Positions 3,763-19,302 of a DNA stretch of 64,000 bases are shown one piece after another; positions within the stretch are counted from its first letter, which is position 1; each line of letters starts with the position of its first letter. Made by a program: the position numbers and the translations under genes. The stretch is from the IMG/VR virus record IMGVR_UViG_3300047550_001767, positions 24,674-88,673 of that record, one strand, 5' to 3'. The notes beneath the pieces were generated by a model that made no database searches, was not told the origin of the DNA, and was given only the letters and a program-made list of their open reading frames with translations. The DNA is from a virus.

Positions 3763-4971
3763 TTAAGGATTTAATTTTTTTTTTCTGGTGTCGCCGTAAT
3801 GAATAATTTCAGCATTACATTGATCTTTTTCTAGTTTGCGCCAAGGATCAACTACTGTTACATAACTAGGTAGTGAGCCAATAAGTCCCTGAGTCCATTT
3901 ATCCCAGTATCCTATAAGATATACATTTGCCCACTGTGGGTCAAGTTCTAGATCATTTGTATTTTGATCATAATATCTTACTTGTCCGCCGTGTTTTTCA
4001 ATGTAGTGTCCGACAAGCATACTTGCGCTACCATTAGTATAAGGCACTGCAGGCTTATATGCCTTACCAATTATAACAACTCTTGTTCCGTACTTTAAAC
4101 ATGCCAAAGCCATGCGCTCTGCTTGTTTCTCTCTTGCTGTCATAATAGCATCAAATAAATCATAACCTAAATCAAGACGCTCTGCAAGATAGCGCAATGC
4201 TATATTGTCACGTGGATGACAAGCGCCGGCGTCTCCTAAGGCTGCCTTCATGTATGCAGGGCCCATAATTCGATGTGTTGATTTTGCTAATGCATTTGTT
4301 ACAACATCAACATTCATGTTGCCGTTAGTCTCAGCAACATCTTGTATCATATTAACTAATGCTAACTTTGTGCTTATAAATGTATTATAGAAAATCTTAA
4401 TTGCCTCTGCTTCATCCCAGGTACCTACTTCATAACGAGGGTTATTTTCCATAAACGGTTTATAAAACTCTATCAATTCTTGTGCATCACCGGTAAGGCT
4501 ACCATCTTCAGTACCAATAATTACCATTTCAGGATTTACCATATCCCATTTTACAGTACCCATAGCGATCAAATATGGATTATAAATGAATCTAGCATTG
4601 GTTATATGTTGCACTAAATGATTTCTAACTGTGCCAGGTAAAACTGTAGAAATTAGTACTACCAATTTTTCTTTAGTGGCATACTTATTAACTTCTTTCA
4701 ATATTTCTACTACAGTACTATAATCAAAATCTTTATTGGGTAAGTGACTAGTAGGAGTCTCTCCGCCATAAATCGGGTCATGTGGAGTAGGGGCGGCAAT
4801 GAATATAATATCGCCGTGGCCTACTGCTTCTTCTATGCTTTTACACATGCCGAATCTAGGTTCAACTACAGGATTAACATCGTATCCCATAACGATATAA
4901 TGTTCAGACATGACTTGGGCACAATCTTTACCCAACTTACCTACACCAATCATTGTTACTCTTTTAATCAT
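3763..4971 (-). CDS. UDP-glucose/GDP-mannose dehydrogenase family protein
   Basis: 402 aa, the usual length for the family. An N-terminal NAD Rossmann fold carries GVGKLG (residues 9-14). The middle domain has NPYLIAMGTVKWD. The catalytic cysteine is in GDAGACHPRDN (C251), matching the family GxGGxCxPKD loop with conservative changes. The C-terminal UDP-binding domain starts at VVIIGKAYKP. These enzymes oxidise the C6 hydroxyl of a nucleotide sugar to a uronate with two NAD+. The exact sugar (UDP-Glc, UDP-GlcNAc, GDP-Man) cannot be fixed. An ideal ribosome site GAGGAATTC precedes the ATG, and an ATAAATA box lies 21 nt upstream, so this gene may start its own late transcript. It supplies a possible activated sugar acid to the neighbouring transferases. 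Confidence 0.87.
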   Translation of the reverse strand: MIKRVTMIGVGKLGKDCAQVMSEHYIVMGYDVNPVVEPRFGMCKSIEEAVGHGDIIFIAAPTPHDPIYGGETPTSHLPNKDFDYSTVVEILKEVNKYATKEKLVVLISTVLPGTVRNHLVQHITNARFIYNPYLIAMGTVKWDMVNPEMVIIGTEDGSLTGDAQELIEFYKPFMENNPRYEVGTWDEAEAIKIFYNTFISTKLALVNMIQDVAETNGNMNVDVVTNALAKSTHRIMGPAYMKAALGDAGACHPRDNIALRYLAERLDLGYDLFDAIMTAREKQAERMALACLKYGTRVVIIGKAYKPAVPYTNGSASMLVGHYIEKHGGQVRYYDQNTNDLELDPQWANVYLIGYWDKWTQGLIGSLPSYVTVVDPWRKLEKDQCNAEIIHYGDTRKKKLNP

Positions 4972-5016: not shown

Positions 5017-5865
5017 TTAAATTAAATGTAAATTATGAAAATAATTACTATTACTTTCTACTATATTATTAAACCATTTTTCAATTACTGTCCTTTCTTT
5101 TAAATCTAAAAGTTCAGTATTATACTGTAGGACTTTCTCTGCGTTTTTGTCTGAAATATTGAATCCTAAATTTTTTAAATATTCCATATACATTTTTGGA
5201 TTAGGATGATAATCTTGGAATGGCGTTTTCCATGAGGAATATGATATAGATGTCCAGTGATATTGATGCCCATTTATCCAACCGCCCTTGCCGTCTTTAA
5301 CAAATTCATATAGACAATTTGGCATGTCAAATATCACATCTCTATATAAATCAACTACATCATCTAATCCTACATCTCCTGTATAATATCTTATGTCATA
5401 TATAGGATCGACTGCTTTTAAAACAACTGCGTGACATGGTAAATATCGTAACGAATTCATCGTGGTAGACATTAAACCTAAATCTCTAATAATATAACCG
5501 CGTACACAAGTATATTTTTTAATAAATTCTTTAGAATAAAAATCTTGTGTCCAAATGTTTCCAGGAGTTTGCCAACCGTTTTCAATATAACGATCTTCTC
5601 TGCTAAACGTGCTCCACATAATCAGTACTAAATCTTTGTCTGTAAATCTATACTTTTGATTAGCACTTGATATACGCTCAGTAATATAGAGATTGCCTGC
5701 CCCCGAACTACCAAAATTGTATATTAATGTATCCTCATTTGTCTCCATAGATAGAATATTTGCCCAAGTAGGCCAAGTATAGTGTGTAAAACTACAACCA
5801 AAAATGAACACGCGGCTATAAGATTTAAAATCTATGTCTTTATAATTCCTAAAGTCTAAAATCAT
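5017..5865 (-). CDS. SGNH/GDSL-like hydrolase, divergent
   Basis: 282 aa. The region FIFGCSFTHYTW (residues 20-31) matches the first block of SGNH hydrolases with S25 as the likely nucleophile. FGSSGAGN follows in the place of block II, and DYHPNPKMYMEYL near the C-terminus supplies the Asp-x-His type catalytic pair. Such enzymes act as esterases, deacetylases or O-acyltransferase partners on sugars and lipids. Here the target is unknown. The start overlaps the upstream gene by 4 nt (ATGA type), so translation is likely coupled. It belongs to a group of three SGNH-like genes within 3.6 kb but is more divergent than the two at 7104-8584. A de-acylating or acyl-transfer role on a phage-made glycan is inference. 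Confidence 0.6.
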   Translation of the reverse strand: MILDFRNYKDIDFKSYSRVFIFGCSFTHYTWPTWANILSMETNEDTLIYNFGSSGAGNLYITERISSANQKYRFTDKDLVLIMWSTFSREDRYIENGWQTPGNIWTQDFYSKEFIKKYTCVRGYIIRDLGLMSTTMNSLRYLPCHAVVLKAVDPIYDIRYYTGDVGLDDVVDLYRDVIFDMPNCLYEFVKDGKGGWINGHQYHWTSISYSSWKTPFQDYHPNPKMYMEYLKNLGFNISDKNAEKVLQYNTELLDLKERTVIEKWFNNIVESNSNYFHNLHLI

Positions 5866-7100
5866 AAAAGTTTTCTCACAAAGTTCTTATGGAGTAATTC
5901 GCATTTAGGATCATCTCCCCTTAAAAATGGGGCAGTCTTACTAATAATCATTTTTTGATTGTGTTCACAAATAGGTTTTACATTGTCTATAAAAGTTTGT
6001 ATCTCGTCATTATTGTAATTGCAAATTTTTTCGATCTCTTTAATTATTTTTTTAAGTCTTTCACAATCATCAAATTCATTATCGTAACTTTCATCTATAT
6101 AAGGATGAAACGTTTTATATCCTATTTCTCGTAATAATTCTAAACTTTTCGGTACGGTAACAAATATAAAAGGGTGACCTACGGCGATAGGTTTGAATAT
6201 CTTTTCACTTAGAAATCTTGCCTCATTCATTCCTTCCCCATGATAAAATGTAGTTTCAGTAACTACACTTACTAAACTATTAAGGTATAGATAAAGACTT
6301 TTGCCTTCTAGATGCGGTTTATTTTCTACTAATTCATCAGTATCTAGATAAAGTTCTGGCATATTTAATATGCTTTGCTCATTGTCGGTTAAGAGTTTAG
6401 AAATTTCTGCATCTTTACTATGATGTCCTTTAATCCACCACCAAATATCATTCCATCCTCGACAATCATCACTACGTGCTAAACTTACATATCCTTGTGG
6501 AAGCAAATTTTTAGCATGTAATAATGCGACTAATGTAGGCCTGTGTAGGCGCCATCTACGATTAAAATTCAAGAATCGTTTCGGGTATGGTTGATATGTT
6601 AATACTTTGCTATAATCAACACTTATTTGTTGCGCTTCTATGCTTATTGATTCTTCAAACTCCAATAACCATTCTACGTTCATATACTCAAAATTATTTT
6701 CATCAGCATATTTTTTAACTGCTTTACCTAAATCTGCTGCTTCATTTGCTATGTAAATTTTATGAGCTGGAATACCGGCATCAACAACTAATGATTGATA
6801 AAGGGGTTCAACTATGTCTAAAAAAGCCTCATGTGTATTTGCCAAATACAAATATGTTCTACTATCTGTTTTTATTTTATCCAAAATAACTTCAGGCATT
6901 ACAGAGTCTATAGGAAAGACATCAAATGCGTCACCGTGAAAAAATTCAATATACCAGTAATCTTTATCATCCCAAGTTCTTAACAACCATATTAAACAAC
7001 CGTCGGCCTCATGACGTATCCAGTTATCATTTTCATTACCAGTTCTAGAGGTATGTAAATATTTAAAGCCCAATTTATATTGTTTATTGAGTAAAGCCAT
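5862..7100 (-). CDS. Glycosyltransferase-like protein, paralogue of 2579-3730
   Basis: 412 aa. The C-terminal region has RFLSEKIFKPIAVGHPFIF and then GYKTFHPYIDESYD, almost the same block as the protein at 2579-3730, so the two are clear paralogues. A middle segment KRFLNFNRRWRLHRP parallels LFVCFNKLHRHHRL in the same relative place of that paralogue, which supports homology over most of the length. The SEK...KP...HPF motif recalls GT-B C-terminal donor-binding regions, so a glycosyltransferase is my best guess. The gene lies between SGNH-like genes: 4 nt overlap with the downstream one, 3 nt gap from the upstream one. No signal peptide or membrane segment is visible, so it should act in the cytoplasm. 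Confidence 0.6.
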   Translation of the reverse strand: MALLNKQYKLGFKYLHTSRTGNENDNWIRHEADGCLIWLLRTWDDKDYWYIEFFHGDAFDVFPIDSVMPEVILDKIKTDSRTYLYLANTHEAFLDIVEPLYQSLVVDAGIPAHKIYIANEAADLGKAVKKYADENNFEYMNVEWLLEFEESISIEAQQISVDYSKVLTYQPYPKRFLNFNRRWRLHRPTLVALLHAKNLLPQGYVSLARSDDCRGWNDIWWWIKGHHSKDAEISKLLTDNEQSILNMPELYLDTDELVENKPHLEGKSLYLYLNSLVSVVTETTFYHGEGMNEARFLSEKIFKPIAVGHPFIFVTVPKSLELLREIGYKTFHPYIDESYDNEFDDCERLKKIIKEIEKICNYNNDEIQTFIDNVKPICEHNQKMIISKTAPFLRGDDPKCELLHKNFVRKLL

Positions 7101-7103
7101 ATA

Positions 7104-7814
7104 TTAAAAATTAATTTCTACCATTTTTCCCGGTTTGTAATTGTCTATGCATTCAATTATAGCATTCGCTAATAACTTATGCATTTTAAGTGATAAATGG
7201 CATTCTCTAGTTTCATTTGATAAATTTTGAGGCCACTCGTCCTTTCTGCTCAAAAGCATTAAAGGAGGTCTTACTTCTGCACAATTTTCAAAACGATGAA
7301 AGTATTTAATATCTTTAAAGTTCACTGAATCATAAATTTCCCATTTATTAAGTGGTACCTGCGAGAAAACATGTAAGTTAATAAATTTTACTGATGGAAA
7401 ATCAAGAACCATATGATCATACATGTTCATTAGTGCAGACATTTCAATATCTGGTTTTTCAGTAAGGGCAAAGTGTTTATAATAGTTGATTGCGGCTTTA
7501 TACACAGGGTTGTTAATATCTGTTGTATCGGTAACTTTTCTATTTGCTATGCTCTCATTTAAAACAGGCATAAAATTATTGTATAATCTATTAATATCAG
7601 ACCAAACAAATATAACAACATCTGGCACAGATTCATTTTTCATGTAATCAAGAAAATTAAAAAATGCTGACCACGGACCAGTTCCGCTCACCCCTCTGAA
7701 ATCGACATCAGCATTATACTTTGATCTTAGAATACCTTCATAGACCTGTGGTATTAAAGGATTACCCTGTTGTAATCTTAATATAAAACTATCTCCAAAA
7801 CCTACAATTTTCAT
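7104..7814 (-). CDS. SGNH/GDSL-like hydrolase
   Basis: 236 aa. It opens with MKIVGFGDSF, the GDS block of SGNH hydrolases at the extreme N-terminus with S9 as nucleophile. GVSGTGPWSAF is the probable oxyanion-hole block II, and a late ECHLSLKMH block supplies candidate catalytic histidines. The block III GxND motif is replaced by WSD in VIFVWSDINRLYN, a clear departure. It is a paralogue of the next gene upstream (7811-8584), with the same GDSF, SGxGPWxAF, AEVRPxLMxxSR and CHLxxxMH blocks in the same order. There is no signal peptide, so it is a cytoplasmic enzyme. A role in sugar O-acyl chemistry is inferred from neighbours only. Confidence 0.65.
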   Translation of the reverse strand: MKIVGFGDSFILRLQQGNPLIPQVYEGILRSKYNADVDFRGVSGTGPWSAFFNFLDYMKNESVPDVVIFVWSDINRLYNNFMPVLNESIANRKVTDTTDINNPVYKAAINYYKHFALTEKPDIEMSALMNMYDHMVLDFPSVKFINLHVFSQVPLNKWEIYDSVNFKDIKYFHRFENCAEVRPPLMLLSRKDEWPQNLSNETRECHLSLKMHKLLANAIIECIDNYKPGKMVEINF

Positions 7815-8584
7815 TTTGTCACTAATTTGGTTAAATAAGGTTTATCCATCTTATAGGATTCTATTTCTACTAATAAACCAGGTTCATACTTATCTATACA
7901 ATTTATAATTGCTTCGGCTACAATTATATGCATAGCCTCTGTTAAATGGCAAGTCCGCGTTTCTAAATGCATTTTGTTACCGCCGGGCCAACCATCTCTG
8001 CGACTCATCCACATTAATGCTGGTCTAACCTCTGCACAATTTATAAATCTATGATGATAGTCTAATTGTTTTGGTCCTAGTTTATCATAGTGATCCCACC
8101 ATTGAAAACGCTTTAAATAAGAAAAGTTATGTAAATTAATAAATTTTATGTTAGGATAATTAAAGACAAATTTATCAAAATACATCATTAAAGAACGCAA
8201 TTCATAATTTTCTTTTTTATGATCCGCTATATATAATCCATAATCTAAAGCTGCCTGGTAAATTTCTGAATTAATATGGTTTTCTTGTATTTTATTCTTG
8301 CAGGTACCCCGTGTAGTATCAAGGATGTTAGGATGATATAAGGATCTGCACGCCTCACTCCAGCCGAATAAAACAACATCAGGTAGAACCTCTGCTTCTT
8401 TAAGGTAGTTTCTGCACTTTATAAACGCATGCCATGGACCAGAACCAGGATCGCCATAAAATTCTACGTTAGTTTCGTCAGCCTTATAATTTTTTAATAA
8501 TAAGCCCTGATAACATGCAAATTCATAACTCGATAAATTGTGAACATCATGTTGAAAACTATCCCCGAAAGCAACTATTTTCAT
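7811..8584 (-). CDS. SGNH/GDSL-like hydrolase, paralogue of 7104-7814
   Basis: 257 aa. MKIVAFGDSF gives the nucleophile S9, GDPGSGPWHAF is block II, and TCHLTEAMH is the C-terminal histidine block. FGWSEACR replaces the family GxND block, as in the paralogue next door (FVWSDINR), so this pair forms its own subfamily. The gene overlaps both neighbours by 4 nt, pointing to translational coupling with the radical SAM gene upstream. Tandem duplication followed by divergence is the simple reading. If block III is truly missing its Asn, activity could be changed to acyl transfer or lost. Function is otherwise unknown. Confidence 0.65.
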   Translation of the reverse strand: MKIVAFGDSFQHDVHNLSSYEFACYQGLLLKNYKADETNVEFYGDPGSGPWHAFIKCRNYLKEAEVLPDVVLFGWSEACRSLYHPNILDTTRGTCKNKIQENHINSEIYQAALDYGLYIADHKKENYELRSLMMYFDKFVFNYPNIKFINLHNFSYLKRFQWWDHYDKLGPKQLDYHHRFINCAEVRPALMWMSRRDGWPGGNKMHLETRTCHLTEAMHIIVAEAIINCIDKYEPGLLVEIESYKMDKPYLTKLVTK

Positions 8585-9837
8585 TCAAATACCCAAAATT
8601 CTTTCATATATGGTAAATAATCAAATATCTTTCTGTTTCTATATTTATCCAGTGGTTCAACAAAATCACGCATCCTGCGCCAATGAGCGAGACGTATTTT
8701 TTCATCTACCTTAGCCTTTAACACATTTGTTCTAATATTTTCAATAGCAGGTAACCACTTATCTTCAAGGTTAACTGTTTTTAAATAATTTTGTAGATCA
8801 TCCAACATGATTGCTGTTTTATTTTTTAATTCTATTGGAGCATAAGCAGGATTAAAATAACTAGGATTGTTTACGCATTGTACGTGCGGCAACGATTTTA
8901 ATATTCCGCATCCTTCATCAGCAACCTGTGTTTCCCACCATTTAACAATATCACCAAATGTTAATAGATTCAATGATGTTACTGTATGACTTAAATTAAT
9001 ATAATAATCGCCGTTTTGTTTAGCAATATTTTTTATACTATCTAATTGACTAGTTACTTTTTTCCATGTAAAGGGATATCGTATGTATTCGTTTACTTTT
9101 CCTACACCATCAATACTGACTGTTATGTGTTTAGTGCTAAATTGACTCCACAGTTCTAGCATCTCATCACTTATACCTGTTAAATTAGTAACAAATCCCA
9201 ATGTAATATCTTTGCTACGTCCTTGTTCTATTAACCTTTTTAACAGATAGGTAACAGCATCATTGATTGTAGGCTCGCCGCCCGCAAACTGCACTGCTTT
9301 TAAGTTAGTCAACTTATCTAATATTGGTGCAATATTTTCTTCTTTAAACCAATTTAAGTTTGGATGATTCCATACAAACCCTGTAATATCTTCTTGCTCT
9401 TTAGCCCATAGTGAACTGGCTGAACTATTGCACATCAAACATGCACTATTACACTTGTTCCCTGTAGTAACATCTAATAAAAAGATTTTACTAAAGTCTG
9501 TAACTTCAGGATTATCTACACGCCAACTTTGTCCGGTTTTTTCTTCCACACCAGCAAGCGTGTGATTAAAGATTTGTCTTGTGCTTGCTTGTCCAACATC
9601 TTCACGTATCTTACATAAATTACATATAGGATTCCATTTGCCTTCTAACATGTCTTTACGTAATTTAACCATGTTTTCATTGTTAAACCATGTAGGCAAA
9701 TGATTTCTATAATCTGCTAATTGATGGTCTGTTTCACGCCAAAAATATGTATCAACAGCGCAGCAAGGTCTGCTTCCGCCATGTGGGCCAAAACTTACTG
9801 AGTTAAATGCTAATGAGCAATATAAATCTTTAGGCAT
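8581..9837 (-). CDS. Radical SAM protein with N-terminal twitch/SPASM-like cluster domain
   Basis: 418 aa. An auxiliary-cluster domain comes first: C7, C25-C26 and C72/C75 in the pattern CSLAF...RPCC...CNLC. The radical SAM motif follows at C129, C133, C136 (NKCNSACLMC), then FAGGEPTINDAV (GGEP, SAM amino group contact) and VTNLTG. The auxiliary domain lies in front of the core instead of behind it, as in proteins NCBI calls twitch domain-containing radical SAM. Such enzymes cleave SAM to a deoxyadenosyl radical; substrates of this subgroup are not established to my knowledge. It overlaps the next radical SAM gene by 8 nt. It is the last of six in tandem in the transcription direction. Confidence 0.85.
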   Translation of the reverse strand: MPKDLYCSLAFNSVSFGPHGGSRPCCAVDTYFWRETDHQLADYRNHLPTWFNNENMVKLRKDMLEGKWNPICNLCKIREDVGQASTRQIFNHTLAGVEEKTGQSWRVDNPEVTDFSKIFLLDVTTGNKCNSACLMCNSSASSLWAKEQEDITGFVWNHPNLNWFKEENIAPILDKLTNLKAVQFAGGEPTINDAVTYLLKRLIEQGRSKDITLGFVTNLTGISDEMLELWSQFSTKHITVSIDGVGKVNEYIRYPFTWKKVTSQLDSIKNIAKQNGDYYINLSHTVTSLNLLTFGDIVKWWETQVADEGCGILKSLPHVQCVNNPSYFNPAYAPIELKNKTAIMLDDLQNYLKTVNLEDKWLPAIENIRTNVLKAKVDEKIRLAHWRRMRDFVEPLDKYRNRKIFDYLPYMKEFWVFE

Positions 9838-10816
9838 TTTGTTTTACCGGTGCACGTTTACTTATTATAATGTCAGTGCCGCAAGTACATTGCATTTTTT
9901 TACAGATGACTGGACGTGACATAAGTTGTATATCTTCATATATATTGCCTAATATGGGGCCCTGTCCACAACTCGCTGCTGTAGTATGTCCGGCACTGTT
10001 AATAAACAACGCTTCATCTACATTACATTCCCAACCAGTAAAGAAGTTTCTGCGTTCTGCGACTATACGGTTTCCGTTTAAGGGTTGTTCTAATCCAGAT
10101 TCATAAACTTCTTTACTAGCGCACTGCCACTTACTGCCTTGTGGTTTGTCTATTGTAGTTTTACTTTCAAAGGTATGAGTTTTGAAAAATTCATGCATCC
10201 AAGGTTCGCTATAGTCCCATGGTGCAACATTAATATCAATATCGCTAAACAATGGTACCCATTCTAGGTTATAGTTTTGTAATGTTGATTTTACTTTTTC
10301 GCCAAATTCCATAACTTCTCTAAATCTATCTTCTTGCATCATCATGCGACTACAGAGATAATTTACTTTATCCTGCAAAAATATTAGATTGTCAAGGTAT
10401 CTGTCACGATTAGCAAAGTCAATATGAAAACTTGCTACTACATCGTGAAACAAATGATAATGCTCTTTCCACCATTGCGTACTACGGCTTAAATTAGTAT
10501 TGATACCAATATGAGGATCATCAATACGTTCTTTCAACCATTTAATTAGAGGTATCAAAAATGGCCAAACAGTTGGTTCGCCACCACTGAAATAAAACTT
10601 ATAACCCTTCGTACCCTTACGTTCAAACTGTGTGATAATTTTATCTAAGTTAAATTTAATTCTATCAAAATCTTCTGGTTTTCCATGTTTAGGGCCTAAT
10701 CCTGCCCAATTACCCGGATTGCAGTACTTACATTTAAAGTTACAAAAATCATTAACCTGCCAAGTGATATTGACATATGGATGATACATTGGTTTAATTT
10801 CAATTAACTTATCCAT
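9830..10816 (-). CDS. Radical SAM protein with C-terminal SPASM-like cysteines
   Basis: 328 aa, the shortest of the tandem set. The cluster motif is at C25, C29, C32 (DFCNFKCKYC), close to the N-terminus, so there is no N-terminal auxiliary domain. YFSGGEPTVW follows. A C-terminal cysteine region (GWECNVDEALFIN, ASCGQGPILGN, then ICKKMQCTCG) looks like a SPASM/twitch auxiliary cluster site in the normal position. It therefore has the opposite domain order to four of its five tandem neighbours. Overlaps of 8 nt on both sides suggest coupled synthesis with the flanking radical SAM enzymes. Substrate unknown; a peptide, sugar or nucleotide substrate are all open. Confidence 0.85.
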   Translation of the reverse strand: MDKLIEIKPMYHPYVNITWQVNDFCNFKCKYCNPGNWAGLGPKHGKPEDFDRIKFNLDKIITQFERKGTKGYKFYFSGGEPTVWPFLIPLIKWLKERIDDPHIGINTNLSRSTQWWKEHYHLFHDVVASFHIDFANRDRYLDNLIFLQDKVNYLCSRMMMQEDRFREVMEFGEKVKSTLQNYNLEWVPLFSDIDINVAPWDYSEPWMHEFFKTHTFESKTTIDKPQGSKWQCASKEVYESGLEQPLNGNRIVAERRNFFTGWECNVDEALFINSAGHTTAASCGQGPILGNIYEDIQLMSRPVICKKMQCTCGTDIIISKRAPVKQNA

Positions 10817-12191
10817 GTTTTGCTCTATAACCGTCTAAAAATTTCTTATAATTTTTAAATTGATTACTATAAGTTTCGTTATAAGGAATATTGATAATTG
10901 AATTTTCTAGTGCAGCCATTGTGTCTTTGTTCACAGTAAAATATTTTAAACCACTATCATGCTGTCTTGCCTTTTCTCTAATTCTAGGTATACACTTCAT
11001 ACGATCCTCATTTGGTATTGATGCTAAACCCAAATATAAAGGATATGATAATGTAATAGGCCACCATTCAACACGCTTCTGATATTGCTCTGCTTCTTTT
11101 GCTAGCAAATCCCATATTTCTGTAACATACTGATAATTTAAGGCCTGTAAAACCGTGTAGCAAAGTATACGCCAGTTAGGACGAGTACTCGCCATTTCAA
11201 ATACTTTCTTAATATTTTCACGCACTACGTCCCACTTAGTACCATAGCGTATGTATTCTGCTACACCACCAATACCGTCAATACTCATCTGTATTTCAAC
11301 GTTATCAAAATTACTTAAAGCCTCATAGAATTTTGGATTCCATGTTGTCATATTGGTCGTAAATTCAATCTTACAGTTTCTATTTCCTGCTGCAATTAAT
11401 TCTTCAAACATCTTATAGTTTGCTTTAATAAGTGTTGGCTCGCCTCCCGTCGTGTATAGGCGTCGCAATTTAGGTGCCATACGTCTAAAGTTTTTATAAA
11501 ACATTTCTGTTTCATACCATTCAGTAATTTCGCTTTTTTCTACAAGATCGTAATCATCTTGCCACTTATCCTGTAACCAATCTAGTTTTTGTTCTTTTAG
11601 CACGCCTGATTTTAAAATCTCTTTACGCTCATCTTGAATAAGTGAACTACTCATGCCCCAACATGTTATACATTTTAAATTACATTGATTGCCCAAACGT
11701 AACTCAAGGCTTAAAGGTAGCATGTCTAACACGCTATACATCTTTTTGTTTATACCATCATATTCTGTAATACTGTTTAAATGATTTGATAATTCATTAT
11801 CATTTTCTTGTCTTATCAACCACATTTTATTTTGTCCTTTTCTAGGACTGTGGCCACTTACTTTTTCCATTTTATAACAATCTAAACAATCTCCAGATCC
11901 ATTATTTTGTCTATGTAGATCACGCACGTTTTGCATATGATCTGAATTCCAGATTGTGTCGATATCATCATATCCTAAATTAAAAGGCTTTGCAGGTTTA
12001 CCATAACCTACAAAATAATCCATAGCGATACTACAACATAATTTGACATTACCGTTTGGATTCGTATTAAGATTGAGCCATGGCAGTACACAAAACTTCT
12101 TCATGTTTCCTGCTAGCCAATTAATTTTTTTATCGCTTGGTACGTCTTCAGGAACTTTAGGTACAGCGTGAACTACCCAATTTAAATCCAT
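10809..12191 (-). CDS. Radical SAM protein with N-terminal twitch/SPASM-like cluster domain
   Basis: 460 aa. N-terminal auxiliary cysteines: FCVLPW at C34 and KLCC at C52-C53, then CLDCYK. The radical SAM motif QCNLKCITC is near residue 170, followed by YTTGGEPTLI and EFTTNMTTW. The C-x-L-P-W opening and the GN...CC spacing are shared with the proteins at 12182 and 13390, so these are paralogues. About 30 extra residues precede the first cysteine. The gene overlaps both neighbours by 8-10 nt. The conserved GGEP and IDGIGGVAEYIRYG segments suggest an intact SAM site and a working enzyme. The reaction is not known. Confidence 0.85.
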   Translation of the reverse strand: MDLNWVVHAVPKVPEDVPSDKKINWLAGNMKKFCVLPWLNLNTNPNGNVKLCCSIAMDYFVGYGKPAKPFNLGYDDIDTIWNSDHMQNVRDLHRQNNGSGDCLDCYKMEKVSGHSPRKGQNKMWLIRQENDNELSNHLNSITEYDGINKKMYSVLDMLPLSLELRLGNQCNLKCITCWGMSSSLIQDERKEILKSGVLKEQKLDWLQDKWQDDYDLVEKSEITEWYETEMFYKNFRRMAPKLRRLYTTGGEPTLIKANYKMFEELIAAGNRNCKIEFTTNMTTWNPKFYEALSNFDNVEIQMSIDGIGGVAEYIRYGTKWDVVRENIKKVFEMASTRPNWRILCYTVLQALNYQYVTEIWDLLAKEAEQYQKRVEWWPITLSYPLYLGLASIPNEDRMKCIPRIREKARQHDSGLKYFTVNKDTMAALENSIINIPYNETYSNQFKNYKKFLDGYRAKHG

Positions 12192-13393
12192 AGTGGTTTT
12201 AACTCCGGAAATGTTATTGTTAAATTTTCATTTCTTAAATTGTCGATTGTAGTTATCACTGCCTTAAATTCAGGAATCAATTCTCTATGATCTGCGCTAT
12301 CCATATAATCTAGTATACCCTTTACGGCGTGTATTGTTTGTGGCCAAGCATTATTATCAGTTAACCACTGTATATACTTTTCATATAATTTGTGTACTTC
12401 CTTTTTTTGCTCTGGGGTTAACATTGTAATACTAAAGTAACGCGGATGTGTTAATATGTTAACACGAATGTTATTGATATTCAAGAGTCCTTCTTCGACC
12501 CAAGTTCTGTGAAAATCAAAAAGGCTATATACACTGAATATACTTACTGTGGGGGTTATTTCAAAATAAACATCTGGGCAACTTTCAATCATCTGTCTAC
12601 GATTCTTTACAATACGATCCCAGTCTGTGCCTTTACGACTATATTCTGCACGATCTCCATATGTATCTAAACTTGCTGCGACACGTACATCCTTAAACAT
12701 TTTCCAATAATCTAATATTGACTTCTCTTTTAATTTTAAGGCACTAAAGTTAGTAGTATAACGTAGACGTACATCTGTTCTGCCCTTTTCTAACCAATAG
12801 TCTAATACTTGGTAGTGTTGCGGTGTGATTAATGCTTCGCCACCAGCAAAGTAAACTTCTTCAACATAATCTAAATGCTGTTTTAAATCATCCATAAAAA
12901 ATGGATTATTCTTTAAATCAATAAACTTAGATTTGGACCAAGTGGGGAACATCTTTACTTGATCGTCGTACCAACTGCTACTTAAATCAGGGCCGCACGT
13001 TCTACAGCGCATGTTGCATAAATTACTAAAACGTATATCCATATAATACATTTTGTAATCATTTATACTACCATCGTCATTTGTCTTGTCAAACAAATCC
13101 ATATGATTACTAAAACTTTCTAAACTATTTTTTCTTAATGTCCAACTATCTGCGCTTGTCTCTAATTCGTAACAACGCATACATGCTTTTGGTTTTTCGC
13201 CATTTAGCATTTGTCTGCGCAGTTCTTTAAATTTTTCATTATTGATTAATTTGTTAATATCTTCCTTATAGACATTACCAAATACCTCGCTACTATCGCT
13301 CATACAGCAAGGAAATGTATTTCCATTTGGCCATATATGCATATGCATCCAAGGCATTAAACATACAACATTTTTATCTATTGATTTACTCAT
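12182..13393 (-). CDS. Radical SAM protein with N-terminal twitch/SPASM-like cluster domain
   Basis: 403 aa. Auxiliary cysteines C11 (VCLMPWMHMH), C29-C30 (TFPCC) and a CMRCYE pair lie in the first 80 residues. The radical SAM motif LCNMRCRTC is near residue 125, followed by YFAGGEALI. The usual GGEP is GGEA here; the proline is lost while the neighbour at 13390 keeps it. DLSSSWYDDQ after the third cysteine is shared with the neighbours (SSxW). This and the 13390 protein look like the closest pair in the set (RYTTNFSALKL against RYNTNLSNLKF; both have AEYxRKGTDW). A tandem duplication is likely. Overlaps: 4 nt with the upstream gene, 10 nt with the downstream one. Confidence 0.85.
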   Translation of the reverse strand: MSKSIDKNVVCLMPWMHMHIWPNGNTFPCCMSDSSEVFGNVYKEDINKLINNEKFKELRRQMLNGEKPKACMRCYELETSADSWTLRKNSLESFSNHMDLFDKTNDDGSINDYKMYYMDIRFSNLCNMRCRTCGPDLSSSWYDDQVKMFPTWSKSKFIDLKNNPFFMDDLKQHLDYVEEVYFAGGEALITPQHYQVLDYWLEKGRTDVRLRYTTNFSALKLKEKSILDYWKMFKDVRVAASLDTYGDRAEYSRKGTDWDRIVKNRRQMIESCPDVYFEITPTVSIFSVYSLFDFHRTWVEEGLLNINNIRVNILTHPRYFSITMLTPEQKKEVHKLYEKYIQWLTDNNAWPQTIHAVKGILDYMDSADHRELIPEFKAVITTIDNLRNENLTITFPELKPLWI

Positions 13394-14625
13394 GTTATTA
13401 ATTCTTCTAGTTCCGGAAATACATTTGCAAATTGTTCTTCACGTAAATTATCTAAATGTGATGTTTCCTTCTGAAATTGCTCTTTATGTCTTTCCCAAGT
13501 GTTATCTGCTAAAACCCATTTTTTAGCATCAACTAATGGCTGTACATGATGTGGTTTAAACCCCATCATTTTCATACGTGTAATCACAGTTTCAATACCT
13601 TCTATCCCCTGTATTTTAAGATGTACAGGTAATGCCAATGCTGCTATATGTTCAGGGCTTATCATGTTGTAAATGGTGTTTGATCTATCTTCAGGGGTAT
13701 AAAAATTCTTATTTAAGAGATAATGATAGAAAGTACTAAAGGTAACAAAGTTAAAAATGCTTAATACACTGTTTATTTGTGTAGCAACATAGGGAACACT
13801 TTTTACTTTTTTAAAGTTTTCTTCAATTTGTTTCCAGTCTGTGCCTTTGCGCATGTATTCTGCTCTTGATCCATAATGATCTAGGCTAGCATAAACTTCT
13901 ATCTTTTTAGTAAAGTGACTCCACAAATCTAATAGGTCTTTATTTTTAAATTTTAAATTACTCAAGTTAGTATTATATCTTAATCTAACATCAGTACGTC
14001 CCTGACGTATCATTTCTTCAAGCATAATATAATGTTCTTCTGTAATTAATGGTTCTCCGCCTGCAAAATATGCCATTGTTATATGTGGAATCTGTTGTAG
14101 TACATCATCTACATATTTGCTACGGTTATCTTTATCAATTGTTATAATTGTTCGACCTTGCTTTGCATCTTCATTTTCCCATTGACTACTATAATGACTA
14201 TTACAAGTTCTACATTTCATATTACATATATTGCTTAAACGCAAATCAAAATAGCGCATTTTAAATTTGCCTATTTCTCCTGTAATATCGGTCGATGCTA
14301 ATGCTTCGTCAAAAAATTGACCAAACATCTGTTCTTCGTTCATATTATTTCTAAAACTATAAATGCCTTGTTCTTCATGTCTATGACAGGCTTTACAAAT
14401 AGGATTTTTTATACCTTCTAGCATATCTCTACGCAATTCTTTCATTGCTTCGCTATTCACTAATTCTATTAGTGATTTTTCGTTTGCGTTTCCTACAGGA
14501 TATAATTGATTACCAATGCAACAAGGAGTGCCTACACCAACAGGAGTAACATGCATACTAACCCAGGGAAGCATACAAAAACTTCCGTTTTTAGTTAATA
14601 ACTCTTCTTCTGGTGTATACTTCAT
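13390..14625 (-). CDS. Radical SAM protein with N-terminal twitch/SPASM-like cluster domain
   Basis: 411 aa. Auxiliary domain cysteines: FCMLPWVSMH (C17), GTPCC (C35-C36), and CKACHRHEE. The radical SAM motif ICNMKCRTC lies near residue 135, then SSQW, YFAGGEPLI and RYNTNLSNL. It is the closest paralogue of the 12182-13393 protein. The start overlaps the upstream stop by 4 nt (ATGA). A KGTDW segment shared with the neighbour probably lies in the SAM barrel. No membrane segment or signal peptide. With six such enzymes in a row, each may work on a different position of one substrate or act in sequence; the sequence does not decide. Confidence 0.86.
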   Translation of the reverse strand: MKYTPEEELLTKNGSFCMLPWVSMHVTPVGVGTPCCIGNQLYPVGNANEKSLIELVNSEAMKELRRDMLEGIKNPICKACHRHEEQGIYSFRNNMNEEQMFGQFFDEALASTDITGEIGKFKMRYFDLRLSNICNMKCRTCNSHYSSQWENEDAKQGRTIITIDKDNRSKYVDDVLQQIPHITMAYFAGGEPLITEEHYIMLEEMIRQGRTDVRLRYNTNLSNLKFKNKDLLDLWSHFTKKIEVYASLDHYGSRAEYMRKGTDWKQIEENFKKVKSVPYVATQINSVLSIFNFVTFSTFYHYLLNKNFYTPEDRSNTIYNMISPEHIAALALPVHLKIQGIEGIETVITRMKMMGFKPHHVQPLVDAKKWVLADNTWERHKEQFQKETSHLDNLREEQFANVFPELEELIT

Positions 14626-16025
14626 TGCAATGGATTCAATCTATTTGTTTCTTGGCAAATTCTATAAAAATTTAAAAGTTCAGGAAATATTTCAAGCATA
14701 TTTGTGTCTCTGCGCTCATCCAACTCATTGAACCAATTATAGAAATCTCTACGTCCTTCTATTAATTTATCTTCATCATATTGAGTTTCACGCATATAAT
14801 CAACCACACGTTTAAACTTTTCATATTCAATCGTGCTAAATTTTTTGCTTGACTTATCATCTACATTTTCTTTCATAAAATCTAATGCTTCTTCCATAAA
14901 AGGCATAAACTCGCCTTTGGGTAAAATATTCATGTCATACTGGAGTGGCTCACGTAGATAAGGAGTATCAAATCTTACGCGGTGTTGTGGGTTGATGGGG
15001 TCATCATACCAATCATACATATTACGCCACTCCAATATTTTTTGTAGTAATAATTTAAAAGATGTTACACTAAACAAATTAAATGTAATCATAAAGGTTA
15101 CAGGACTGTTTGTGATACTCAAATATGTGTGCAAGTTTTTTTCCCATAATTCTATATCAAGGCCTGTACGATTATATTCTGCTCTTGGGCCCCAAGTATC
15201 GATACTTGAGAAAAGTTTAAATGCTCTAATTTTCCCTTCGTCACTTAACTTTCTAACCGCCTTACTCATTTTTTCTACAAGTGCAGTCTTTGTACCTAAA
15301 TTGCTATTAATGTTAAGTTCAAGCCAGGGCATAGGATCTTTATCAATTTCATCAAGCACTTGATATGTACTTCTATGCATAGTAGGCTCACCACCAGTTA
15401 TACGCATGATGTTTAATGTCTTGCGTAACTCAGGCCACCATTTCCAGAACGCATCAACGTAAGGGTTTTCTTCTTCACGCTGATATAGTTTCATCCAGTC
15501 AATATCACAGCGGTGATTTTTTACGCTTGTGACAGGACCATGTTCTTTGATTTCTTGATAGAAACGTGTTGAATATTTTGGATGACAGTACCCGCATTTG
15601 AAGTTACATTCATTACCGAAATTAATTTCAAGGTATTCTGGATTAATATTTTGTTCGTGACTACCCTTAGCACATTGATTAAAACGTTCATCTGTAAAAA
15701 TACTTGCATTTCTAATGTGGCGGTCGCTTACGTAATCAGGACCCATATCCTCTACGTTCCAACAATATTGACAGCCAGAAGGACGTTTGCCCTCTAACAT
15801 CATTTTTCGTTCTTCTTTTTTCTCTTTAGTATTGTGTAATGCTGACGGATTGTCTACTAATTCCTCTAGTGGAATCTTATGAGGGCGGGGGTGATAGCAA
15901 CTATGTGTCTCACCCGATTGTAAGTACATAGTGACATGATGCCACTTTGCTAAACAAAAAGTTGACGTTGCTTGATTTTCAACTACTACTTTTATTTCTT
16001 TAATTCTGTCAATCTCATAACTCAT
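14622..16025 (-). CDS. Radical SAM protein with N-terminal twitch-like domain, divergent
   Basis: 467 aa, first of the six tandem radical SAM genes in transcription order. The auxiliary domain is altered: FCLAKWHHVTMYL (C24) and HSCYHPRPH (C43) replace the CxLPW and CC of its relatives, with CQYCWN later. One ligand of the usual CC pair is therefore missing and a His-rich stretch lies beside it. The core motif ECNFKCGYC is near residue 140, then RITGGEPTMHRSTYQ and NINSNLGT. The C-terminal part is longer than in the neighbours. It touches the glycosyltransferase-like gene upstream with a 1 nt stop/start overlap, which links the radical SAM set to the glycosyltransferase set. Confidence 0.85.
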   Translation of the reverse strand: MSYEIDRIKEIKVVVENQATSTFCLAKWHHVTMYLQSGETHSCYHPRPHKIPLEELVDNPSALHNTKEKKEERKMMLEGKRPSGCQYCWNVEDMGPDYVSDRHIRNASIFTDERFNQCAKGSHEQNINPEYLEINFGNECNFKCGYCHPKYSTRFYQEIKEHGPVTSVKNHRCDIDWMKLYQREEENPYVDAFWKWWPELRKTLNIMRITGGEPTMHRSTYQVLDEIDKDPMPWLELNINSNLGTKTALVEKMSKAVRKLSDEGKIRAFKLFSSIDTWGPRAEYNRTGLDIELWEKNLHTYLSITNSPVTFMITFNLFSVTSFKLLLQKILEWRNMYDWYDDPINPQHRVRFDTPYLREPLQYDMNILPKGEFMPFMEEALDFMKENVDDKSSKKFSTIEYEKFKRVVDYMRETQYDEDKLIEGRRDFYNWFNELDERRDTNMLEIFPELLNFYRICQETNRLNPLQ

Positions 16026-16981
16026 TACCAGCCCTCTATTTTTCTTATGACATCCATTTCTTTTACTAATGGGCCTAAGTTATGTTTGTCGGAGTTATAG
16101 TGTCGTTTAAAAAACTTACTTTGTTCTGCATCAAGTGTGCATATAGGTAAATCTAATTTATTCTGTAAAATATCGCCCAATCGGTCACTTTCGGTAACCG
16201 GACGCATATGCTTAAAAATACCATCCCACATTTTTTGTAAGTTGTCGAACCACATTACATTTTTATGATCCCAAATTGTCAACATAGTCATGTAAGTACC
16301 AAGACGTGCGCCATATATAGCCCAATCTCCGTTCTCTACATCCATGCCAACATTATGCCATATAGTTAAATTATTGAGGTTACGTGATGCTACTCTTGTT
16401 TTAAATTCGTCAACTGTTGGTCTAGCGCCGGCGTCTAAACACATTTTAACTCCCTCACGAAATCCTGCACGCCATGCTTGAAATGGTGTACCATTGGGGT
16501 AAGTAGTACTATAACAATCGTACATAGCCCAATAAAGATTGTCTGCACTATCCATACAAAAATCTACTTGTGTGGCCGAACTACCGTCTGTATGTTCATG
16601 TGTACGCATGTTAAACACATATTCTTTTGTCCAACTGCTCATGCCACCGTTGCCGTAACGTAATCCATTAATATTATTTGTAGCCTTCCAGCGAAACTGT
16701 GCTTTTTTATAAATTGGATCAAGACCAGTAAAGTCAAGTTGAATATTGAAAAAATCAGGTGTAGGTAAATTGTCGCCGTCAATTAATATAAAACGATCAG
16801 TCTCACTTGCTTCTGCTGCTGCTTTATGTGCGGCATCACTACCCTTTACGCCATCAACACGTTTAGCATATGGGCATAATTCATTTTTTATTTTATGCCA
16901 AAAATGTTCTTTTTGTGGCTCATCATAACTTAGATATATGCAATCTAAGTCAACAACATCTACTATGTCATCCCAACTCAT
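16025..16981 (-). CDS. GT-A-like glycosyltransferase (putative)
   Basis: 318 aa. The N-terminal 90 residues read like a GT-A nucleotide-sugar fold: a DCIYLSYDEPQKE strand, AKRVDGVKGSDAAHKAA, then RFILIDGDNLPTPDFF with an Asp-x-Asp-like metal site (DGDN). Similar proteins occur in marine T4-like phages, usually as hypothetical or glycosyltransferase. The C-terminal two thirds is Trp- and Asn-rich and not recognised. It overlaps the 117 aa gene upstream by 14 nt and touches the radical SAM gene downstream. I infer transfer of a sugar to an unknown acceptor in the cytoplasm. Confidence 0.6.
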   Translation of the reverse strand: MSWDDIVDVVDLDCIYLSYDEPQKEHFWHKIKNELCPYAKRVDGVKGSDAAHKAAAEASETDRFILIDGDNLPTPDFFNIQLDFTGLDPIYKKAQFRWKATNNINGLRYGNGGMSSWTKEYVFNMRTHEHTDGSSATQVDFCMDSADNLYWAMYDCYSTTYPNGTPFQAWRAGFREGVKMCLDAGARPTVDEFKTRVASRNLNNLTIWHNVGMDVENGDWAIYGARLGTYMTMLTIWDHKNVMWFDNLQKMWDGIFKHMRPVTESDRLGDILQNKLDLPICTLDAEQSKFFKRHYNSDKHNLGPLVKEMDVIRKIEGW

Positions 16982-17321
16982 ATGTTATTAACACCCATTG
17001 GGTAATTTCAATACTACCATCATCAACTATAATACTAATATCTTCTTTAGCACATTTATTGCCTAAAAGACTGTCTGGTTGTAACTTGCTTATAATTGCA
17101 GAAGGATTTACTGTTGATAAGCGACCGTTGATAACTCTAACATCAGGGCGAGCTGTAGCAAAAGTAATAGCATCAATAACTATGTATTTGCCTTCAGGTT
17201 TCTCGCAGGTATAAAATAATACTTTACCGTTTTCTTCTTCGTAATATAAACGAAATTCGGGAGCCTCAATTTTAGGTGCCTCAAACAATAAGACATAATC
17301 TTCTGTTTCATCTTGATTCAT
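16968..17321 (-). CDS. Hypothetical phage protein, 117 aa
   Basis: Not recognised. The protein is acidic, with a beta-rich look: LFEAPKIEAPEFRLYYEE, then GKYIVIDAITFATARPD, then ISIIVDDGSIEITQWVLIT. No cysteine clusters, signal peptide or membrane segment. It overlaps the neighbouring glycosyltransferase-like genes by 14 nt downstream and 4 nt upstream, so it is a real coding frame in the operon and not a shadow. Its position between two transferases could mean a small partner protein. I considered a peptide substrate for the radical SAM set, but it has no leader-core look and only two cysteines. Confidence 0.7.
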   Translation of the reverse strand: MNQDETEDYVLLFEAPKIEAPEFRLYYEEENGKVLFYTCEKPEGKYIVIDAITFATARPDVRVINGRLSTVNPSAIISKLQPDSLLGNKCAKEDISIIVDDGSIEITQWVLITYELG

Positions 17322-18112
17322 ATAGACTTCTCTATTTCATAGGCAAATTTTTTCACATGATAGTGAAAAGGATACATTTGCGGTACGGTATTTATACGTA
17401 AAGTATGAGGTAATATTTCATAAATTAAAACGTCTGTCCAATCTTCACTAGGCGTGCCATTAATATGTTGCTTCATGTGCACCATAGACATTTCTGGATA
17501 ATTAGGTAATGTTGTATGTTCTATTCCTATGATGTGCGCTGCTATCGCATATGCCCAGTCAGTAGTAACAGGCTCAGTAGGACTGCATTTAAGCATAGCA
17601 CGAAATTCAGGCCAGTTTTCAAAAACCATTCTAACGATTTTAAAAAATGTTTCAGCAACATTACTTTTCTTAAAGTATGTTATAGCGTTATAAACATTAG
17701 GTAGTTTATTATCTTCAATAAACCGACGATAAAATTTCTGTTTACTAATTTCTTGCTTAAAATCTCTTATGTGTGTGCTTACCACTAAATCTTTATGCTT
17801 TAAAATATCCCACCAAGGTTCTATTGATTTTGGCAAATACAAATCTGCTTCAAGTTTAATAGTATATTCATAAGGACTTGCTTCATAAACTTGCCAGTCA
17901 TTGATAAGTTTCCAGTTACCGCCTTTATCCAAATCTCCATATGGCAAGGCTATCACGCTATCAAAATAACTTGCATCATCTACTTCATCACTAATTAAAG
18001 AAACTTTTGCGTCTGGCATATGTTTTTTAATACTATAAGCCAGCATTTCAGCACATTTAACATAGTTAACAAACTCTGTGTTTTGTGCTAAGATTACAAA
18101 TCCTTTATCCAT
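17318..18112 (-). CDS. GT8-like glycosyltransferase (putative)
   Basis: 264 aa. An N-terminal GFVILAQNTEFVNYVKCAE is followed by AKVSLISDE and then YTIKLEADLYLP, which fits the strand-Dx(D) metal motif of GT-A retaining enzymes (ExD here). A later segment NVYNAITYFKKS parallels the FNSGVM-type acceptor region of GT8-like proteins. It overlaps its neighbours by 4 and 8 nt. The protein upstream (18105-18932) shows the same architecture with a proper DVD motif, so they are probably distant paralogues working on the same glycan. No transmembrane segment; acts in the cytoplasm on nucleotide sugars if the call is right. Confidence 0.6.
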   Translation of the reverse strand: MDKGFVILAQNTEFVNYVKCAEMLAYSIKKHMPDAKVSLISDEVDDASYFDSVIALPYGDLDKGGNWKLINDWQVYEASPYEYTIKLEADLYLPKSIEPWWDILKHKDLVVSTHIRDFKQEISKQKFYRRFIEDNKLPNVYNAITYFKKSNVAETFFKIVRMVFENWPEFRAMLKCSPTEPVTTDWAYAIAAHIIGIEHTTLPNYPEMSMVHMKQHINGTPSEDWTDVLIYEILPHTLRINTVPQMYPFHYHVKKFAYEIEKSI

Positions 18113-18932
18113 TTTTAATTAACTCCACATAAATGTCTTTATTCATTACGTGAAAATCCATATCTTTTATAGTAATAAATTCTTTTCTTATTTTACCACG
18201 CTGCCAATTGTCAAACAATACAGTATATTCTGTATTGTAAGGAGAGTTACTTGCTGCGATAACATTAGTATTTTTACCTACGTGCATTAAATTCCATGGT
18301 ATAATATCTTGAGGTGCTATAGTATGACCATTTACTATACGTAATGCTAAAGTTAATGCATAATCATTTCTAAAAATATTTGCTAAAAAGTGATGCATGT
18401 TTGCGTAGTGACCAAAATTATTTTGTATCATTTCAATACAATTGAAGATTTGTTCTGCACGTTCTGTTTTTTTAAAAGCAACTACTGTTGCCCATAATGT
18501 TTTATAACTGTATACACTTAATACTTCTTGCGGTAATCTAGGCTGCATGAAATACTCTGTGTTGTCATGGCAACAAAAATCATCGTACAAATCAAAACAT
18601 TTTAACAACTTGTCGCTATTAACAACATAATCAACATCAAGTAATAAAGTTTCTTTATAAGGACTTAATTTATAGGCTTGATATCTTCCTTTATTAATCC
18701 AAGGCGCGCCGTCTCTATTATTATTTTTATCTGCCGTGACTAATTTTACTTTATCAAATTTATAATCTGAAATGGCGCTATTTAAAGTCTCTTTATCAGT
18801 AACTAATGTAACTGGCAAATTTAAAAAATGATTTATACGCTGGGCAGTATGAACTGCCATGTCATAATAATTATACTTGGTATTGTTAAATGCAAAAAGT
18901 ATCGCACCGCGACTTTTCTTTCCGCGTTTCAT
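18105..18932 (-). CDS. GT8-like glycosyltransferase (putative)
   Basis: 275 aa. A basic N-terminus (MKRGKKSRG) leads into ILFAFNN, LPVTLVTDKETL and then APWINKGRYQAYKLSPYKETLLLDVDY, written here as two motifs: APWINKGR and LLLDVDY. LLLDVDY is a clear DxD metal and nucleotide-sugar site, and KxxxxxxSPYxxTLLLDxD is a common pattern in phage and bacterial GT-A enzymes. A late IPWNLMHVGKN segment may be the acceptor side. It overlaps the downstream transferase by 8 nt and the upstream 101 aa gene by 4 nt. Donor and acceptor cannot be read from sequence. Confidence 0.68.
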   Translation of the reverse strand: MKRGKKSRGAILFAFNNTKYNYYDMAVHTAQRINHFLNLPVTLVTDKETLNSAISDYKFDKVKLVTADKNNNRDGAPWINKGRYQAYKLSPYKETLLLDVDYVVNSDKLLKCFDLYDDFCCHDNTEYFMQPRLPQEVLSVYSYKTLWATVVAFKKTERAEQIFNCIEMIQNNFGHYANMHHFLANIFRNDYALTLALRIVNGHTIAPQDIIPWNLMHVGKNTNVIAASNSPYNTEYTVLFDNWQRGKIRKEFITIKDMDFHVMNKDIYVELIKNG

Positions 18933-19234
18933 CTCTTTGCCTCTAACTCATTCCATTCTTTTAACCACTCAGTCATAGTCTGTTGATAAACAGATTTTAA
19001 TTTATGTAGTAAATCTTCTCTATTAATTTTAACGGGATTATTAAAGGTATCCATAACGACTATTTCATCGTCATCAAAAGAATTTAATAAAGTTATAGTT
19101 TGCTGATCTGCTTTCCATAAGCCACCTTGATCAGCCAAAGTTAGTCTACTATCATATTTTTCTTTTAAGTAGGCTTTCGCTGAATTGTGACTAAATCTAG
19201 CCTTTGATTCGGCTAATAAAGTTTTGACATCCAT
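18929..19234 (-). CDS. Small conserved phage protein near tail-fibre genes, 101 aa
   Basis: Function not known. A mostly helical, charged protein: LLAESKARFSHNSAKAYLKE, then LADQGGLWKADQQTI, then MDTFNNPVKINREDLL. Proteins with this LxxxKARFxHNxAKxYLKEKY start occur in T4-like marine phages beside fibre genes, from my memory of the family, not from a search. A strong AAGGAG site lies 8 nt before the ATG. The leader contains a second AAGGAG within a short hairpin (arms AAGG/CCTT). It starts the coupled run of accessory genes and overlaps the next gene by 4 nt. A virion or assembly role is possible. Confidence 0.7.
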   Translation of the reverse strand: MDVKTLLAESKARFSHNSAKAYLKEKYDSRLTLADQGGLWKADQQTITLLNSFDDDEIVVMDTFNNPVKINREDLLHKLKSVYQQTMTEWLKEWNELEAKR

Positions 19235-19270
19235 TTTATACTCCTTGAAGGCGCTAATGCTCCTTGCGAG

Positions 19271-19278
19271 TATTTAGA
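19271..19278 (-). promoter_or_regulatory. Possible T4-type late promoter box
   Basis: TCTAAATA on the minus strand, 37 nt before the 101 aa gene, in a 68 nt gap. It differs from TATAAATA at one position. If used, it would start the transcript that runs through the glycosyltransferase and radical SAM genes. Confidence 0.4.
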
Positions 19279-19302
19279 TTTAAAAAATGGAACGATTAAA
19301 AA

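Follow-up and report, generated by a model that had tools for sequence, protein, structure and literature searches.

Why would a phage carry six genes for radical S-adenosylmethionine (radical SAM) enzymes in a row, and on what would so many radical enzymes act? The question is raised by the virus record IMGVR_UViG_3300047550_001767, an 88,673-base IMG/VR fragment, of which we analysed the 64,000 nucleotides at record positions 24,674-88,673 (the window, whose coordinates are used below unless the record is named). We propose that the six enzymes, together with a glycosyltransferase encoded directly upstream and a B12-binding radical SAM enzyme encoded nearby, belong to one phage operon for the multi-step radical modification of a glycan, likely on a tail protein. 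Based on sequence and synteny, we give this reading a probability of about one half.

A tandem row of six radical SAM genes

The row occupies 8581-16025 on the minus strand and its members, in the order of transcription, are R6, R5, R4, R3, R2 and R1. Adjacent frames overlap by 8, 8, 10, 4 and 4 nt (read from 8581 to 16025); the cassette has no intergenic space, and no small precursor-like gene was identified within it. A PF04055 search of the whole 88.7-kb record returned exactly eight radical SAM matches, every one inside the window. Seven exceed the curated cut-off, and R6, the only one under it, has an intact motif. All eight proteins contain CxxxCxxC, and GGEP is present in R1, R2, R3, R5 and R6 (GGEA in R4). 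The initial annotation had described six tandem frames with overlaps of 4-10 nt, eight radical SAM genes with CxxxCxxC in the window, and GGEP in most of them. Coordinates, profile search and motif reading bear this out, GGEP being found in five of the six tandem enzymes. When eight radical SAM genes are placed randomly among 42 genes, a run of at least six arises in about 2 of 10,000 trials.

Five of the tandem enzymes (R1, R3, R4, R5 and R6) are members of NCBIfam NF033640 (N_Twi_rSAM), a family defined by sequence alone, with scores of 266-398 bits (curated cut-off 170 bits) and nearly the full profile covered. In these N-twitch enzymes an auxiliary Fe-S (SPASM/twitch) domain lies N-terminal to the radical SAM core. 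R2, the B12-binding enzyme and the remaining radical SAM protein of the window, R8, fall outside the family.

The first enzyme of the cassette and its most conserved member is R6 (14622-16025; NF033640, 312 bits), in which an N-terminal twitch/SPASM-like domain (C24, C43, C85, C88) precedes the CxxxCxxC motif (C140, C144, C147). The AlphaFold2 model of R6 (predicted local distance difference test, pLDDT, 85.5) has no fold match in the PDB at E<=0.001, with AprD4 among the weak matches, and the R6 profile matches solved structures just in core stretches of MoaA and viperin (best E 0.003). As R6 fits no solved radical SAM fold beyond the core, its reaction is not readable from structure. R5 (13390-14625; 349 bits), R4 (12182-13393; 398 bits) and R3 (10809-12191; 266 bits) have N-terminal SPASM-type domains, for which the PF13186 scores are 41.7 (residues 17-81), 46.2 (residues 11-75) and 29.4, against a cut-off of 21.5. 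R2 (9830-10816) is short and lacks the N-terminal domain; it reaches 34.9 bits for PF04055 (cut-off 29.5) and 48 bits, under the cut-off, for NF033640, and its C-terminus appears by eye to be cysteine-rich. The row ends with R1 (8581-9837; NF033640, 278 bits; PF04055, 47.3 bits), which is of the N-terminal twitch type.

Conservation of the cassette and its sugar-type neighbors

Scans of IMG/VR identified 322 relatives of R6 and 176 of the B12-binding enzyme, and 80 of each were kept. The intact cassette is shared by about a hundred related viral sequences, in a fixed order that begins with a giant tail gene, a 204-aa baseplate-type protein, two tail proteins and two small glycosyltransferase-like proteins, continues with the candidate glycosyltransferase GTg, R6, R5, often a second R5, R4 and R2, and ends with glycosyltransferase-like, SGNH-like, dehydrogenase and B12-binding radical SAM genes. 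Of 113 R6 genes, 70 have GTg as the upstream neighbor, another 16 have a GTg-like protein there, and 92 are followed by R5. Untruncated runs of four to six radical SAM genes are present in 74 loci, with a median gap of -4 nt. R2 is a core member in the relatives, R3 is present in a minority (best-hit label for 13 open reading frames in 13 loci), and R1 is the best-hit label for 11 open reading frames in 11 loci.

The residues expected to bind the clusters are retained throughout. CxxxCxxC is kept in all 493 complete homologues of R1-R6 (101/101 for R2 alone), and the N-terminal auxiliary cysteine pattern, which is not found in R2, in all 392 complete homologues of R1, R3, R4, R5 and R6. Over 38 non-redundant relatives, R6 is 56-89% identical, and its seven cysteines listed above are invariant. 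The downstream sequence extends for 8 kb or more in 90 R6 loci. Every one of these has a gene for a glycosyltransferase or a glycosyltransferase-like protein; nucleotide-sugar enzymes are encoded in 72 of them, B12-binding radical SAM enzymes in 68 and SGNH-like proteins in 66. Additional genes in the relatives encode a GDP-fucose-synthase/epimerase-like protein (71 loci) and a second B12-binding radical SAM enzyme (53 loci). In related phages, the genes are not scattered apart from sugar genes, and the cluster cysteines are not lost from most homologues. Thus, the earlier suggestion of a multi-step modification of a glycan or a virion protein is a fair one, and it leaves the choice between these two substrates to be weighed below.

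Long contigs each encode 5-20 radical SAM proteins, 3-11 of which are N-twitch, and an Fe-S carrier (PF01521) was identified in 9 of 24 long relatives. The 231-kb contig L045 (G006) has 20 radical SAM matches, 11 of them N-twitch, and another tandem array between 6.6 and 17.1 kb.

The genes around the row, all on the minus strand, include several that point to sugar metabolism. GTg (16025-16981), which lies directly upstream of R6 with a 1-nt overlap, is probably a GT-A glycosyltransferase, judging from its AlphaFold2 model (pLDDT 87.6) and an invariant D68-x-D70. The best Foldseek matches in the PDB are mainly GT-A proteins (BcsA, HddC, PBCV-1 capsid glycosyltransferase, SunS and WrtF; E 7e-4 to 2e-3), and these structural matches overlap partially, with a template modelling score of about 0.3. 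A sequence search of the PDB with GTg returned no match. A nucleotide-sugar dehydrogenase of the UDPG/GDP-Man type (3763-4971) is over the cut-off for PF00984 (55.9) and PF03721 (53.8) and below it for TIGR03026 (135.8, cut-off 189.8). A DegT/DnrJ aminotransferase (2-346; PF01041, 41.3 vs 19.8) is cut by the window edge and whole at record 24429-25019. With the GTg fold, the dehydrogenase, DegT and the nucleotide-sugar enzymes of the 72 loci, glycosyltransferase and nucleotide-sugar genes occur together in the predicted operon, as is expected of a glycan locus.

Other neighbors were recognized by eye. GTx1 (2579-3730) is glycosyltransferase-like, has no Pfam, PHROG or NCBIfam match, and shares a C-terminal block with GTx2 (5862-7100). 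GTx2 is also glycosyltransferase-like, without a Pfam or PHROG match, and usually follows R2 directly in relatives. Three proteins resemble SGNH hydrolases: SGN1 (5017-5865; GCSF block), SGN2 (7104-7814; FGDSF) and SGN3 (7811-8584; FGDSF). SGN1 and SGN3 have no Pfam or PHROG match, and SGN2 has no profile match. Two small glycosyltransferase-like proteins (17318-18112 and 18105-18932) are conserved with the cassette (median identity 62-66% in 71-72 loci), and their sole match is phrog_1903, of unknown function. Within its first 30 kb, the record encodes SpeD, recognized with a profile, and proteins that by eye resemble carbamoyltransferases and amidinotransferases. A bacterial protein homologous to the carbamoyltransferase-like one matches PF02543 and PF16861.

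The B12-binding radical SAM enzyme at 330-2576, which directly follows R2 in many relatives, had been noted initially, and profile matches agree (PF04055, 46.1 vs 29.5), the B12-binding domain PF02310 narrowly exceeding its cut-off (33.2 vs 32.1). The enzyme is probably of the C- or P-methyltransferase type. It did not reach any named functional family (TIGR03975, PhpK and BchE all scored under cut-off), and its best NCBIfam match is TIGR03975 (124 bits, cut-off 282).

Cellular relatives, cultured phages and the tail-gene setting

When GTDB contigs were scanned with an alignment of R6, 38 loci were found, mostly in Bdellovibrionota. Sampled genomes with a family member over the cut-off number 41 of 144 in Bdellovibrionota, 3 of 150 in Pseudomonadota and 1 of 148 in Bacteroidota, where each count includes a centre genome picked because it carried a member; with the centre genomes left out, Bdellovibrionota still differ from Pseudomonadota (Fisher p about 6e-12). 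Bdellovibrionota hold arrays of up to seven N-twitch genes, and a Bdellovibrionales contig has the row R4, R2, another radical SAM gene and R6. A row of seven in Bacteriovoracaceae bacterium UBA6144 (G173:C41:68210-77775) is near housekeeping genes.

The phage cassette shares its enzyme types with glycan-type gene clusters of Bdellovibrionota. The neighbors of R6 relatives in Bacteriovoracaceae and related genomes include genes for a carbamoyltransferase, GT1 glycosyltransferases, a PqqD-like protein, a second radical SAM enzyme and sometimes DegT, and one Bdellovibrionota R6 relative is accompanied by a GTg relative among glycosyltransferase-like open reading frames. No PqqD gene was identified in the window or the phage loci by tblastn with a Bdellovibrionota query, which could miss distant recognition elements of ribosomally synthesized and post-translationally modified peptide (RiPP) systems. 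S24-like and other partner genes of the Bdellovibrionota were not found in the phage loci. The phage R6 sequences nest in a largely Bdellovibrionota tree, built by a quick method and with long branches flagged, which shows clustering and not the direction of transfer.

Binning was considered as a source of information about the host. Contigs with R6 were binned with metagenome-assembled genomes of Bdellovibrionota, Rhodobacteraceae, Flavobacteriales and Neomarinimicrobiota. This does not fix the host because at least the Rhodobacteraceae and Neomarinimicrobiota contigs are phage by gene content.

Neither R6 nor GTg has a tblastn match among 50,697 cultured-phage records. N-twitch radical SAM enzymes are nevertheless present in 40 records of KVP40-like Vibrio phages. 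In KVP40, genes for an N-twitch radical SAM enzyme, a small protein and a PF00534 (GT4-type) glycosyltransferase form a triple that is 89, 81 and 69% identical to that of Vibrio phage K566, in which further N-twitch genes are interleaved with glycosyltransferase-like genes. These phages resemble the cassette in enzyme type and in pairing one such enzyme with a GT4-type gene, but their genes are spread over up to five places per genome, lack the ordered R6-R5-R4-R2 row and are only about 25% identical. In Agrobacterium phage Atu_ph07 and Sinorhizobium phage Phosso, by contrast, a radical SAM cluster occupies the same genome position, behind a homologous baseplate-type protein, but the enzymes have C-terminal SPASM domains of the peptide-maturase type and are not homologous to R1-R6 by BLASTP. 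Among these maturase-like genes, both phages encode a protein ending CHxSCHxSCHxSRxRR (L173:25062-25952, 296 aa, in Atu_ph07; L172:24306-25226, 306 aa, in Phosso), found only in these two phages in the cultured collection. These proteins are possibly radically modified, RiPP-like virion proteins. CHxSCH, HxSHxS and Cys-repeat motifs are absent from the window, and relatives show just chance matches to HxSHxS.

The homologous core genes common to the record and to Rak2-like and Atu_ph07-related jumbo phages place the virus. An SbcC-like protein is 49.6% identical to that of PA5oct-type Pseudomonas jumbo phages (45% for Phosso, 42.5% for Atu_ph07). The baseplate-type protein at 21237-21851 (minus strand), a fixed landmark before the cassette with a median identity of 85% in 59 loci, is annotated as a baseplate protein in Escherichia phage Turkey5 and is 54% identical to its counterpart in Phosso and 52% to that in Atu_ph07. 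Given these identities and the length of cassette-bearing contigs, which reach 364 kb, we infer that the window comes from an uncultured jumbo phage of the Rak2-like/Atu_ph07 type.

Between the landmark and the cassette lies a Ser/Thr-rich tail protein (19303-20238, minus strand; 29% S+T) with an ARYFFNAG motif. In 70 of the 75 loci with enough flanking sequence, an open reading frame with the ARYFFN motif is found at a distance of 4-7 kb from R6, and the same open reading frame accompanies a second cassette group whose other tail genes differ. The homologues of this protein have 28.5% S+T vs 12.8% for all open reading frames longer than 200 aa. Such a composition is compatible with O-glycosylation but is no evidence of it; the protein is a candidate acceptor.

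Strand and position suggest that the operon is expressed late. Copies of the T4-type late -10 box (TATAAATA) 60-70 nt before the starts at 17321 and 2576 are not conserved in relatives, and so were dropped and not counted as evidence for lateness. The box is rarer than expected in the window (7 copies vs a mean of 16.5, with at least 7 in all 100 shuffles), and three of the four minus-strand copies are 50-70 nt before gene starts (61693, 17321 and 2576). Sigma-70 promoters and terminators are at chance level.

Other features lie outside the cassette. The tail region includes a single 6569-aa open reading frame (22016-41725) that is rich in Thr, Asn, Val and Gly and has a median identity of 45% in relatives. 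Upstream of the window, at record 11241-19370, a 2709-aa protein has about 27 or more copies of a repeat of about 65 aa (FDFSWHPD..PPYIYQFGTQWQKTGGPRYVVPGATEIKYV) and a C-terminal GTg-like domain; its relatives reach 2500 aa, many with 6-23 repeats. R8 (58634-59647, plus strand) is a separate gene beside gp46/47-like genes. Its assignment as a radical SAM protein stands (PF04055, 35.7 vs 29.5; phrog_21308, E 6.5e-25), and the SPASM-like C-terminus attributed to it is visible by eye, without a match to a SPASM profile.

Candidate substrates of the cassette

If the substrate is a glycan, the glycosyltransferases would build it, supplied by the nucleotide-sugar dehydrogenase, the aminotransferase and, in relatives, the epimerase, with the Ser/Thr-rich tail protein, whose gene lies 4-7 kb upstream, as its most probable carrier. 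Each twitch-type enzyme would use a 5'-deoxyadenosyl radical to alter one sugar carbon (by epimerization, alcohol oxidation or deoxygenation), and the B12-binding enzyme would contribute a methyl group. Proteins encoded further along, which resemble carbamoyl- and amidinotransferases, may decorate the product. There is chemical precedent in the aminoglycoside pathways, where the radical SAM enzymes NeoN, BtrN and AprD4 alter sugar carbons. These enzymes and GenK are likewise of twitch/SPASM or B12 types, encoded beside aminotransferase, amidinotransferase and carbamoyltransferase genes. Unlike them, the cassette enzymes have an N-terminal auxiliary domain and no significant fold match, so that the likeness is a lead and not a sign of membership. 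N-twitch enzymes are associated with glycosyltransferases in the jumbo phage group, in KVP40-like phages and in Bdellovibrionota; thus, a glycan is the most economical substrate. The position among tail genes favors the virion as the site. In a more specific picture, which is speculative, four to six radical enzymes, a set otherwise concentrated in Bdellovibrio-type predators, would work as an assembly line on the sugar carbons of a glycan that is already attached to the tail. The virion would then carry radically rewritten sugars resembling those of antibiotics.

Several observations weigh against a glycan. The R6 model does not resemble any solved sugar-acting radical SAM enzyme well, several glycosyltransferase labels and all SGNH labels come from sequence reading without profile support, and phage tail regions often include nucleotide-sugar genes, whatever the role of the radical SAM enzymes. 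Twitch/SPASM enzymes are best known from peptide maturation. The cassette may modify amino acids of a tail or fibre protein directly, as sactipeptide and other RiPP maturases do, and the glycosyltransferases would have a separate action on that protein. Crosslinks, epimerized residues or C-methylated residues would result, making the tail tip stiffer or shielding it. PqqD has a peptide-chaperone fold, and PqqD-like proteins are encoded near R6 relatives in seven Bdellovibrionota loci. Together with the peptide-type enzymes around the CHxSCHxSCHxSRxRR protein at the post-baseplate site of Atu_ph07 and Phosso, they keep direct modification alive, and the best family match of the B12-binding enzyme is a RiPP C-methyltransferase. 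However, the phage loci lack a PqqD-like gene and a Cys/His repeat, the cassette has no precursor-like gene, the Atu_ph07 and Phosso enzymes differ in type, and N-twitch enzymes accompany glycosyltransferase genes in unrelated phages. We consider direct modification the strongest competitor of the glycan reading, and doubtful.

The enzymes could instead remodel a host surface polysaccharide during infection, for superinfection exclusion or release, after acquisition from Bdellovibrionota-like hosts. The glycan-type clusters around bacterial R6 relatives and the nesting of the phage sequences among them are consistent with this, but the cassette has a fixed place directly after the baseplate and tail genes, on their strand and in step with tail proteins, which fits virion assembly better, and no polysaccharide export or polymerase gene was recognized, so we regard it as unlikely. 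It is still more improbable that the products are a free small molecule or modified tRNA or DNA. Other phage radical SAM enzymes, such as QueE, do act on 7-deazaguanine precursors, and R5 matches QueE-like proteins weakly in PHROG (2e-5), but the best matches are to the N-twitch family and the cassette is without queuosine or DNA-modification partners.

The initial annotation knew of no phage pathway with so many radical SAM enzymes, which needs correction, as phages with many such genes are on record. A T4-like marine genome (TARA_ERS488813_N000010) has 12 (PMC5332604), Aeromonas giant phage 332-Vera has eight inside its structural-gene cluster (PMC12390700), and host-recognition clusters of pelagimyophages contain radical SAM cassettes (PMC7029224). 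The abundance of these genes in large aquatic phages has been called highly unusual (PMC12390700). These too are large phages, and in two of the three the radical SAM genes lie close to structural genes or to genes for host recognition. In the passages of the three reports considered here the genes are counted or mentioned, and gene order, coupling to glycosyltransferases, a cysteine census or a link to Bdellovibrionota do not appear. In the open-licence literature we found no report of a fixed, intact, strictly ordered and glycosyltransferase-linked phage cassette of this kind, or of its concentration in Bdellovibrionota.

The strict gene order and full conservation of the cysteines make the cassette testable. 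That the family is concentrated in Bdellovibrionota suggests a surface chemistry in common and provides a clue to the host of this abundant group of uncultured phages. If the modification is on the virion, the cassette would be a multi-step radical pathway by which a virus acts on its own glycan or tail protein. This would explain the abundance of radical SAM genes in large aquatic phages.

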